DNA of 64,000 nt. It comes from Perlabentimonas gracilis. Lineage in GTDB: Bacteria; Bacteroidota; Bacteroidia; Bacteroidales; Tenuifilaceae. This document shows, piece after piece, positions 5,848 to 8,039 of the stretch. The stretch is from assembly GCF_011174675.1 (NCBI RefSeq), contig NZ_JAANIG010000018.1, forward strand, positions 21,217 through 85,216, written 5' to 3'. The notes beneath the pieces were generated by a model. That model worked only from the letters and a program-made list of their open reading frames with translations, was not told the origin of the DNA and ran no database searches. The stretch's first letter is position 1. Each line of letters opens with the position of its first letter. A program made the translations under genes and the position numbers.

Positions 5848-5962
5848 GCGAAACAAATTTTGGATTTCGATTGTTACTTATTATGACAGCATACCATTTG
5901 ATAAGTTTAATACCCTTAGAGAGGCATTATTCCCAAATAATCTATTTGTATTACAAATTATT

Positions 5963-5970
5963 TATATTTG
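5963..5970 (+). promoter_or_regulatory. Probable -7 element of the cys leader transcript
   Basis: TATATTTG matches TAnnTTTG and lies 20 bases before the leader ATG at 5990. It sits in a run of ATTTGTA/TACAAAT half-sites at 5944-5971 that could bind a regulator. No -33 TTG is present at the usual spacing, so confidence is moderate. Confidence 0.5.
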
Positions 5971-5989
5971 TACCCTAATAAACAGGCAG

Positions 5990-6082
5990 ATGATTCATTT
6001 ACAAAATTATATTAATACCGTTTGTTGTTGTTGGTTTGCAAACCAAACGCGAAGGGTATGCCCATACACAATGCATCTGTAA
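5990..6082 (+). CDS. Cysteine-rich leader peptide of the cysE-cysK operon
   Basis: This 30-codon ORF reads MIHLQNYINTV, then Cys-Cys-Cys-Trp, then FANQTRRVCPYTMHL and stop. The three adjacent TGT codons at 6023-6031 are followed by a fourth Cys codon at 6059. It lies between a promoter-like element and an intrinsic terminator, and the next gene is serine O-acetyltransferase, the first step of cysteine synthesis. This is the layout of a ribosome-mediated attenuator: scarce Cys-tRNA would stall the ribosome on the Cys run. CGTTTG at 6019-6024 can pair with CAAACG at 6044-6049 around the Cys codons. GAAGGG at 6051-6056 can pair with CCCTTC at 6112-6117, the 5' arm of the terminator, forming an antiterminator. 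The function is inferred from architecture only. Confidence 0.72.
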   Translation: MIHLQNYINTVCCCWFANQTRRVCPYTMHL

Positions 6083-6109
6083 TAGATTAATTTGACAGGT
6101 AAAATAGTG

Positions 6110-6138
6110 AGCCCTTCCATTCTGGAGGGGCTTTTTTT
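6110..6138 (+). terminator. Attenuator terminator upstream of cysE
   Basis: The stem AGCCCTTCC/GGAGGGGCT (one G-U pair) has a 5-base loop and is followed by a run of seven T. It ends 16 bases before the cysE ATG, so readthrough is needed to express cysE from the upstream promoter. The 5' arm is also complementary to GAAGGG in the leader ORF. No other gene lies upstream on this strand for it to terminate. Confidence 0.8.
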
Positions 6139-6154
6139 ATAATATCATCACGCC

Positions 6155-6925
6155 ATGAAGCACGAGAAATTTAAAACATTGCCATCGAAGTTAAGCACCA
6201 TTAGTTTTACAAATAATTTGGTTCACAATCTTTTCCAATTTATTGATGGCGGAAGGCCCAAAAGTATTAGCAGAAGGAAACTCGAAAAGCAGCTAAAGGC
6301 TTTGCTAAAAAAAACGCCCACGGTTGAGCGCTACGCCCAACAAGAATTAGCCAAAAAATTTATGCTTTCGTTGGATAGCATAAAAGAACAGCTTCTTACC
6401 GATGCTACCTTTATTGAGGGAAACGATCCTGCAACCACATGCGTTGAGGAGGTGGTAATGACCTACCCCGGATTTTTAGCCATTGCGGTTTACCGGTTAG
6501 CCAATAGGCTGAAAACATTGGGTGTACCTCTTATTCCAAGGATAATGACCGAGTACGCTCACTCCCAAACGGGAATTGATATTCATCCCGGGGCAAGTAT
6601 CGACAGCCCATTTTTTATCGACCATGGAACCGGTATAGTGATTGGCGAGTCGGCAGTAATTGGAAAAAGAGTAAAACTTTACCAAGGAGTAACCATTGGT
6701 GCACTTAGCGTAAGCAAGGAGTTGGCCAGAGTTAAGCGCCATCCCACAATTGAGGATGATGTGGTAATATACGCTGGTGCTACCATACTTGGTGGCAAAA
6801 CTACCATTGGTATGCGATCCGTAGTAGGTGGTAATGTTTGGCTTACCGAGAGTGTACCCCCTTTTTCCATTGTACAACACGACAATAAGGTGAGGATAAC
6901 AACCCGGGATTACTCGTTGAGTTGA
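6155..6925 (+). CDS. cysE: Serine O-acetyltransferase (EpsC/CysE type)
   Basis: This 256-residue protein transfers acetyl from acetyl-CoA to serine, making O-acetylserine for cysteine synthesis in the cytoplasm. An N-terminal helical region of about 135 residues precedes a left-handed beta-helix of hexapeptide repeats. The family signature is EYAHSQTGIDIHPGASI near residues 129-145, followed by DHGTGIVIGESAVIG and GVTIGALS. The active-site His is in this block. The C-terminal GGNVWLTESVPPFSIV is also typical. cysK follows in the same direction, separated by repetitive sequence. Upstream is a leader peptide and terminator, so cysteine-responsive attenuation is likely. The ATG follows the terminator closely and has no clear ribosome-binding site, as is usual in this phylum. 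Confidence 0.95.
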   Translation: MKHEKFKTLPSKLSTISFTNNLVHNLFQFIDGGRPKSISRRKLEKQLKALLKKTPTVERYAQQELAKKFMLSLDSIKEQLLTDATFIEGNDPATTCVEEVVMTYPGFLAIAVYRLANRLKTLGVPLIPRIMTEYAHSQTGIDIHPGASIDSPFFIDHGTGIVIGESAVIGKRVKLYQGVTIGALSVSKELARVKRHPTIEDDVVIYAGATILGGKTTIGMRSVVGGNVWLTESVPPFSIVQHDNKVRITTRDYSLS

Positions 6926-6931
6926 AAGATA

Positions 6932-6990
6932 GGAAGTCGGAAATTAGAAGACAGAAGTCGAAAGTCAGAAAGTCGAAAAGTCAAAAGTCA
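6932..6990 (+). repeat. Degenerate GAAAGTC tandem repeat
   Basis: Short units resembling GAAAGTC or GAAGTCG recur about seven times with small changes just after the cysE stop codon. The frame can be read through as a lysine/serine-rich peptide, but it shows no protein-like pattern. It looks like an intergenic repeat of low complexity. Confidence 0.6.
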
Positions 6991-7020
6991 ATAAACACAA
7001 TCATTCAACCAATCAATCAT

Positions 7021-7110
7021 CCCTGCCTGCCGCAAACGTCAGTCAGGCAGGCAATCAATCAACCTGCCCTCCGACATCAGTCAGGCAGCCTGCCTGCAGG
7101 CAAGCAGGGT
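7021..7110. repeat. Palindromic CCTGCCTGC repeat cluster
   Basis: Several copies of CCTGCCTGC and its complement GCAGGCAGG or CAGTCAGGCAGG form overlapping hairpins between cysE and cysK. Related words occur at 15953-16040 and 37250-37320, so this is a dispersed repeat family in the genome. It may affect mRNA stability between cysE and cysK. Confidence 0.75.
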
Positions 7111-7127
7111 CAACCAATCACTTAATC

Positions 7128-8039
7128 ATGAAAATAACAACATCAACACAGCTAATTGGTAACACACCGCACTTGCGGTTAGGTAAACTTTTCCCAAATC
7201 ACGAGGTGTGGATAAAATTGGAACGTGCCAACCCAGGTGGCAGCATAAAGGATAGAATTGCGCATGCCATGATTTCCGATGCCGAAGGCAAGGGACTGCT
7301 AAAACCGGGGGGTACAATTGTTGAGCCTACCTCGGGCAACACGGGCATTGGCCTTGCGCTGGTTGGAGCGGTAAAGGGCTATCGGGTTGTTTTGGTAATG
7401 CCAGAGTCGATGTCGGCTGAACGGCGAATGCTGCTGAAAGCATACGGAGCAGAGCTTGTTCTCACATCAAAAGAAAAGGGCATGAAGGGAGCAATAGCTA
7501 AGGCAAAGGAAATTGTAGCCAATACACCGTGTGCATTTATGCCTATGCAGTTCGAGAATTTGGCAAACCCAGAGGTGCATATGCGCACTACCGCAGTGGA
7601 GGTTATTAACGATTTTCCCGAGGGCATCGATTATTTAATCACCGGTATTGGAACTGGTGGGCATATTACGGGTGTGGGCAAAACGCTTAAGGAGGCATTT
7701 CCACAGGTTAAGGTGATAGGCGTTGAGCCATCTGCCTCAGCTGTAATAAGTGGTAATGCATCAGCACCGCACCCATTGCAGGGCATTGGCGCTGGGTTTA
7801 TCCCACCAATACTTGCTTTGGATATCCTAGATGAGATGGTGCAGGTACAGGGCGATGAGGCATATTCAATGGCTCGGCAATTGGCAAGAACAGAAGGGGT
7901 TTTGGCTGGCATTTCAACAGGTGCATCGCTGGCTGCCATTGCAAAAGTGCTAGCTGCTATTCCGTTTGGTAAAACCATTCTCACTTTTGCCTACGATACG
8001 GGTGAACGATACCTAAGCGTTGAGGGGCTCTGGGAATAG
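7128..8039 (+). CDS. cysK: Cysteine synthase (O-acetylserine sulfhydrylase)
   Basis: This 303-residue PLP enzyme of fold type II converts O-acetylserine and sulfide into cysteine and acetate. The PLP lysine lies in [14 protein letters not shown] (about residue 42). The substrate loop is [13 protein letters not shown] near residues 64-76. The phosphate-binding loop is [14 protein letters not shown] near 173-186. The C-terminal ISTGASLAA is also conserved. The length fits CysK/CysM. Both names are used for such proteins and the subgroup cannot be decided by eye. It lies downstream of cysE, its metabolic partner, and is presumably under the same attenuator. A large perfect inverted repeat ends the operon. 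Confidence 0.93.

Follow-up and report, generated by a model that had tools for sequence, protein, structure and literature searches.

A short open reading frame with a run of cysteine codons lies between a predicted promoter and a predicted terminator, just ahead of a likely gene of cysteine synthesis, in the 64,000-nt stretch of Perlabentimonas gracilis DNA analysed here (the window). The locus raises the question of whether cysteine supply is sensed by a ribosome translating a leader peptide, which is how the initial annotation had read it. The comparative evidence, from a gene-first scan of cysE loci and from swap tests of the alternative RNA pairings, supports that reading. We consider it very likely that the ORF and the predicted terminator form a cysteine-responsive transcription attenuator ahead of a likely cysE and probably also of cysK; by every sequence test made, the leader is a predicted, conserved cysteine-coded leader-peptide attenuator.

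The features of the locus are collected in Table 1, together with the leader loci discussed further below. The leader ORF translates as MIHLQNYINTVCCCWFANQTRRVCPYTMHL, followed by a stop codon. Codons 12-14 are cysteine, a Trp codon comes directly after them and a fourth Cys codon is found at 6059-6061; the first Cys codon lies 57 nt upstream of the stop codon. The elements first proposed at this locus were recovered: the ORF with its Cys triplet and later fourth Cys, the TAnnTTTG element upstream of it (here a predicted promoter), the pairing of CGTTTG (6019-6024) with CAAACG (6044-6049) around the Cys run, and that of GAAGGG (6051-6056) with CCCTTC (6112-6117) in the 5' arm of the terminator. 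The strong terminator annotated 16 bases ahead of cysE was also found, with a hairpin of -17.5 kcal/mol starting 26 nt past the leader stop. The terminator search returned two overlapping terminator-like sites at the locus against a mean of 0.2 in shuffles, and the 183-nt leader RNA folds better than its shuffles (z -3.25; 1 of 200 shuffles equally good). No match to Rfam leader or T-box families was obtained in the window at gathering score, the best sub-threshold scores in 5850-6200 including Phe_leader (23.4 vs 55 bits).

Table 1. Features of the cysE leader locus and positions of related leader loci
Feature	Position or loci	Strand	Evidence or remark
-7-type promoter element TAnnTTTG, predicted	5963-5970	+	sequence TATATTTG
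Leader ORF, 30 codons	5990-6082	+	translation; Cys leader with terminator at 32/168 cysE loci
Three adjacent Cys codons, predicted stall site	6023-6031	+	translation
Stem 1:2 around the Cys codons	6015-6059	+	MFE fold; swap test
Strand 2, antiterminator core GAAGGGT	6051-6057	+	longest match; swap test
Strand 3, GCCCTTC, terminator 5' arm, alternative partner of strand 2	6111-6117	+	swap test
Intrinsic terminator, predicted	6109-6138 (hairpin 6109-6133, T-run 6134-6138)	+	terminator search
cysE-type serine O-acetyltransferase (best match)	6155-6925	+	NCBIfam best models, below cut-offs
cysK, cysteine synthase A	7128-8039	+	NCBIfam cysK 399.4 vs cut-off 350.95
asnA of the window's own genome (G000), leader locus L303	contig C62, 7971-8675	-	poly-Asn leaders upstream
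Other poly-Asn asnA loci	L295-L302, L304, L306-L310		
Loci with gltX upstream of Cys leader and cysE	L007-L009, L011, L012, L014, L016, L019, L020, L116, L117, L164		

The first gene behind the terminator had been annotated as a serine O-acetyltransferase (SAT). The best NCBIfam models for its protein are indeed serine O-acetyltransferases, with both scores falling below their cut-offs (EpsC, 146.7 vs 150; cysE, 144.9 vs 210.65), so that the assignment agrees with the best models and stays short of either threshold. We call the gene cysE because of this best match and its adjacency to cysK, with which it is probably co-transcribed. The nearest named relatives of the window SAT include Bacteroidota and Bacteroidales metagenome-assembled genomes (MAGs), and no match to the window cysE (E 1e-20) was detected in any of four same-genus genomes (G001-G004). 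The gap between cysE and cysK (6926-7127) contains short repeat-like stretches (GTCGAAAGTC..., CAATCAATCA... and CCTGCCTGCAGGC...).

For the gene-first scan, SAT relatives were gathered regardless of what lies upstream of them (110 and 23 loci plus 40 fetched regions), and 168 non-duplicate cysE loci were left after dropping four duplicates and loci with less than 150 nt of upstream sequence. A Cys-rich short ORF was defined by at least three Cys within five codons upstream of cysE, and a terminator was counted if it started 10-45 nt past the leader stop. Such ORFs are present at 44 of the 168 loci (antisense, 4; ten shuffles, 0-5), and ORF and terminator together at 32 (antisense, 0; ten shuffles, 0). 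The stop-to-terminator distance is 20-33 nt across these 32 loci except for the doubtful L023 (43 nt, -10.1 kcal/mol), which was removed from later sets. The other 136 loci lack the pair. The leader-bearing loci span 13 families of the order (f1, f6, f9, f23, f32, f58, f80, f82, f93, f97, f99, f112 and f117); L048 belongs to an Ignavibacteriae MAG. Of the 16 genomes of the window's own family that carry this cysE, 14 have a leader, if L014 with its mere two adjacent Cys is included, and two (L017 and L018) have none. Conservation of the leader ORF and its Cys run among relatives, on which the initial annotation had made its reading depend, was looked for directly, and the reading survived. The window leader shows two traits of an attenuator of this kind, an ORF rich in codons for the amino acid made downstream (Cys-Cys-Cys before cysE-cysK) and a predicted intrinsic terminator between the leader and the first gene.

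Removing L023, adding L014 by hand and including leaders found with the covariance model R1 described below gave a set of 41 leaders; nine of them were contributed by R1, which makes their Cys runs dependent on that model. In 20 of the 41, TAnnTTTG, a Bacteroidota promoter motif, is present within 70 nt ahead of the leader start, against a mean of 2.24 and a maximum of 7 in 200 mononucleotide shuffles, with the relatives not being independent of one another. At the window promoter element, a search for a TTTG partner spaced 17-23 nt away was negative, as was one for an E. coli-type promoter at the locus.

The codons themselves bear on two other explanations. The Trp codon that comes after the Cys run in the window leader could be the sensor, and the initial annotation had named the leader after Cys-Cys-Cys-Trp. 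Trp is not constant, as it directly follows the run in 6 of the 41 leaders, and the regulated genes are those of cysteine synthesis; Trp is almost certainly not what is sensed. The TGTTGTTG run might instead be an RNA element only, serving pairing or representing a repeat, with an incidental frame and a constitutive terminator, and its position within the conserved stem 1:2 would suit this. We regard it as extremely unlikely since Cys codons in the set vary between TGT (143) and TGC (38), several runs are interrupted and still remain in frame (Cys-x-Cys), and the stop-to-terminator distance is 20-35 nt (median 27 in the 41 leaders, selection having limited it to 10-45 nt).

Pairing was examined by swap tests, in which each species' strand was paired with its own partner and with that of every other species (20000 permutations; 34 of the 41 leaders, omitting the near relatives L003, L006, L008, L012, L014, L016 and L143). 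Strand 2 pairs with the terminator 5' arm at -15.04 kcal/mol within species and at -11.61 kcal/mol after swapping (0/20000 permutations), and moving the strand-2 window by -25 nt raised the count to 5809 of 20000, moving it by +25 nt to 750. The corresponding values for stem 1:2 are -16.17 and -11.47 kcal/mol (0/20000; its control, 14473/20000), and those for the terminator arms, which served as positive control, -18.93 and -13.29 (0/20000). An earlier test with 25 leaders agrees with these results; its controls (-20 shift, 114; +30 shift, 558; strand 2 with the terminator 3' arm, 1158, each of 20000) were low enough to indicate a weak background signal. Because the leaders are related, the permutation results should not be read as numbers of independent events. 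The covariation of stems that had been suggested as a check is seen for all three pairings (1:2, 2:3 and 3:4), which are better within than between species. Stem 1:2 overlaps the regulatory codons both in the MFE fold and in the swap test, and the mutually exclusive antiterminator pairing is conserved by covariation across the 34 leaders.

These pairings also weigh on the idea that the ORF encodes a small functional Cys-rich protein, for example one acting in metal or redox chemistry, with the terminator merely marking its 3' end. Cys-rich short peptides are indeed encoded repeatedly ahead of cysE and of OsmC- and AhpC-type genes. Outside the Cys run, though, the peptides differ widely between families, and a peptide function leaves unexplained why, within species, the RNA around the run fits both of its alternative partners. 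A small protein of this type is highly unlikely.

In the trp- and his-type attenuators of enterobacteria, mutually exclusive 1:2, 2:3 and 3:4 pairings are set by the ribosome at the regulatory codons, and a ribosome at the stop codon typically, not obligatorily, masks strand 2. The window leader resembles them in its mutually exclusive pairings and differs in that its strand 2 lies inside the ORF, with 22 nt separating the end of the core from the stop (across the 41 leaders, -10 to 31 nt with a median of 18). The initial annotation had called the fit not fully classical, as a ribosome on the stop codon would already have moved beyond GAAGGG. This turns out to be the usual arrangement in the group: in 26 of the 41 leaders the core falls more than 15 nt short of the stop codon, in 11 it falls 1-15 nt short, and in 4 it overlaps or follows it, the core being picked by longest match and short or doubtful in some leaders (e.g. 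4 bp in L204). Since it mostly lies well before the stop, we infer that switching off requires, in most leaders, something beyond simple masking of strand 2 by a ribosome at the stop. Spacing in the leaders is constrained, the distance from the first Cys codon to the core being likewise confined, to 19-45 nt (median 27). A ribosome covers about 15 nt on its leading side; standing at the Cys run or at the stop, it would leave the next element free.

We modelled the stalled state by placing a ribosome at the second Cys codon of a transcript ended ahead of the terminator 3' arm. The probability that the terminator 5' arm then pairs with RNA lying between Cys run and terminator is above 0.5 in all 41 leaders (mean 0.77; window 0.83; intervening RNA shuffled 0.46), although only 21 of the 41 individually exceed their own shuffles. 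With no ribosome, pairing of the 2:3 type exceeds 0.5 in 19 leaders (window 0.28), and with a ribosome at the stop in none (window 0.40), on the assumption that the ribosome bars the RNA behind it from pairing with RNA ahead. In the full-length RNA, the terminator is favoured in all ribosome states, so the antiterminator must form first and the switch must be kinetic.

The proposed cysteine attenuator would operate as follows. Transcription would begin near 5977 and the leader would be translated. When Cys-tRNA is scarce, the ribosome would stall at the three adjacent Cys codons and cover the 5' arm of stem 1:2; strand 2 could then pair with strand 3 before the terminator 3' arm is made, and transcription would continue. 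When Cys-tRNA is plentiful, the ribosome would pass strand 2 and reach the stop codon (6080-6082), where strand 2 would either be kept off strand 3 by the ribosome or be re-paired with strand 1, allowing the terminator to form.

Twenty-three cysE leaders served to build the covariance model R1. Searched against 393 whole genomes of the order, the model yielded 19 matches above 60 bits, of which 18 are directly before cysE; 16 of these 18 are training sequences and only G010 and G048 are new, so the result demonstrates specificity more than independent discovery. The 19th match precedes an OsmC gene (leader MENMILNLHTCCCSC...). Non-training leaders found by R1 among 82 sources include L006, L012, L014, L016, L022 and L124 (50-96 bits). 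With the cut-off relaxed to E 0.01, some match is present in 234 of the 393 genomes, a minority of these matches having been inspected. Across 395 genomes of the phylum, a match at E 1e-6 was detected in 11, one being the window's genome.

We read 22 further R1 matches, comprising 12 chosen non-cysE matches among the order matches listed and all 10 phylum matches outside the window. Nine are Cys leaders, located before cysK in five cases (G062, G200, G291, G569 and G448, with G569 and G448 belonging to other classes of the phylum) and before a PALP-family gene, OsmC, an AhpC-type peroxiredoxin and a carbonic anhydrase in one case each. Six are Ile/Val-rich leaders before ilv-type genes, one is a Met/Cys leader before a Cys/Met-metabolism PLP enzyme and six were set aside. 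The names cysK, ilv and thiM were given by eye, and OsmC, AhpC-TSA, Pro_CA, PALP and Cys_Met_Meta_PP come from Pfam. Among 30 loci of the nearer cysK, 7 lack the search motif, and the other 23 include the leaders already known from G062 and G200 and a weak one (L242); in a more distant cysK clade a Cys leader was found at 0 of 20 loci.

The Ile/Val-rich leaders with terminators (L212, L219-L222 and L225) are found in other Bacteroidota genomes before genes that resemble ilvB, ilvE and ilvD by eye. L223 has the leader MKKQTTNMACMMCKEIYAKAIIV before the Cys/Met-metabolism PLP enzyme, likely an O-acetylhomoserine sulfhydrylase. The Cys-run leaders before the OsmC, AhpC-type peroxiredoxin and carbonic anhydrase genes (L204, L217 and L218) may link cysteine supply to redox or other functions. 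Matches L207 and L211 were set aside, as were L208, L209 and L214, which lie before a thiM-like gene and resemble what we take to be the 3' ends of TPP riboswitches. L215, also set aside, proved to be a poly-Asn leader, and L280-L283 show no clear leader.

R1 also matched poly-Asn leaders before asnA. A survey of this gene gave 31 matches in 60 relatives, and 30 loci were analysed. Poly-Asn leaders are present at 15 of the 30 (antisense, 0/30), in every case with a terminator at 12-34 nt from the stop of a leader. These comprise 14 loci of the window's own family and G057; in other families, 15 of 16 loci have no such leader. Two poly-Asn ORFs occur at 9 of the 15 loci, and both have a called terminator at 4, including the window's own genome, where two tandem poly-Asn leader/terminator units stand before asnA. 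We regard the poly-Asn leaders as candidate asparagine attenuators; the Asn-rich leaders in the window's genome, like the Cys leaders ahead of cysK, speak for the attenuator reading of the cysE leader. Some of the asnA leaders proximal to the upstream gene read NNNNNNRPPP. The four same-genus genomes gave no asnA match.

Taken tentatively, and with rather less confidence than even, these leaders may be variants of one modular Bacteroidota attenuator body composed of a sensor stem, an antiterminator strand inside the ORF and a CCTTCC-type terminator, in which the sensor codons can be exchanged. In most members the antiterminator strand would be traversed by the ribosome, so that the decision would be a race rather than masking at the stop codon. 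It is conceivable, again short of probable, that the sensor codons are Cys for cysE and cysK, Asn, often in tandem, for asnA, Ile/Val for ilv genes and Met/Cys for O-acetylhomoserine sulfhydrylase. Both the tandem Asn units and the placement of the antiterminator strand within the ORF offer handles on transcription-translation coupling in this phylum.

Ribosome-mediated attenuation is well known as a kind, and a case before cysE or cysK in Bacteroidota is apparently undescribed: none was found in our searches of the open-access literature, the comparative survey of Lopatovskaya (2010) falling outside that scope. RNA-level amino-acid sensing in Bacteroidota is thinly described in the literature that we found. 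Leader-peptide attenuation has been noted in Flavobacterium psychrophilum and B. thetaiotaomicron (PMC9723704, PMC7366714), which belong to the same phylum and resemble the present case in having amino-acid operons or long 5' UTRs with leader-like ORFs; the text passages on this attenuation give no Cys example.

The uORFC-8-2 motif is a predicted ribosome-mediated attenuator before cysS in Rhodobacterales (PMC8632094). As described there, it has a short ORF with adjacent Cys codons, a first stem holding them and a U-run terminator, as does the window leader, but it occurs in another phylum, ahead of the cysteinyl-tRNA synthetase gene, and has two Cys codons at positions 14-15. The description, from which rather than from sequence the likeness is drawn, gives two stems and no cysE or cysK. 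The window leader precedes a cysE-type gene and cysK in place of cysS and falls outside this motif.

Actinobacteria have leader peptides with Cys runs before cys operons (PMC1262725). According to that account they share with the window a short ORF, runs of Cys codons and genes of cysteine synthesis, but their Cys run is near the stop and no conserved terminator hairpin accompanies it; in the window, the run begins 57 nt before the stop and a terminator is present. Together with translation attenuation of cys genes in M. smegmatis, reported from the mycobacterial experiment of Canestrari (2020) as cited in PMC13236596, such leaders without clear terminators (PMC1262725) give some ground for supposing that the window leader acts on cysE translation or via Rho rather than through intrinsic termination. 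The strong hairpin and T-run 26 nt past the leader stop, and a terminator 5' arm whose alternative partner fits it within species, make this very unlikely. If the attenuator reading is true, a cysE attenuator in 13 families of the order, with cysK attenuators elsewhere in the phylum, would constitute a directly testable cysteine-supply sensor.

The genomic surroundings provide a further parallel. Bacillus methanolicus has the arrangement gltX-(T-box)-cysE-cysS (Table 5 of PMC4342826), which resembles the leader loci in placing a cysteine-linked switch behind gltX and before cysE. Its T-box reads uncharged tRNA directly, whereas the window has a predicted leader peptide and no T-box match. This suggests that the place taken in Bacillus by a T-box, between gltX and cysE, is filled in other bacteria by a leader peptide. 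A gltX on the same strand, ending 9-442 nt ahead of the leader, is present at 12 of 169 loci, many loci having too little upstream DNA to tell, and all 12 are among the 32 leader loci. The window's own gltX (669-2195) lies 3.8 kb upstream of the leader, with other genes in between.
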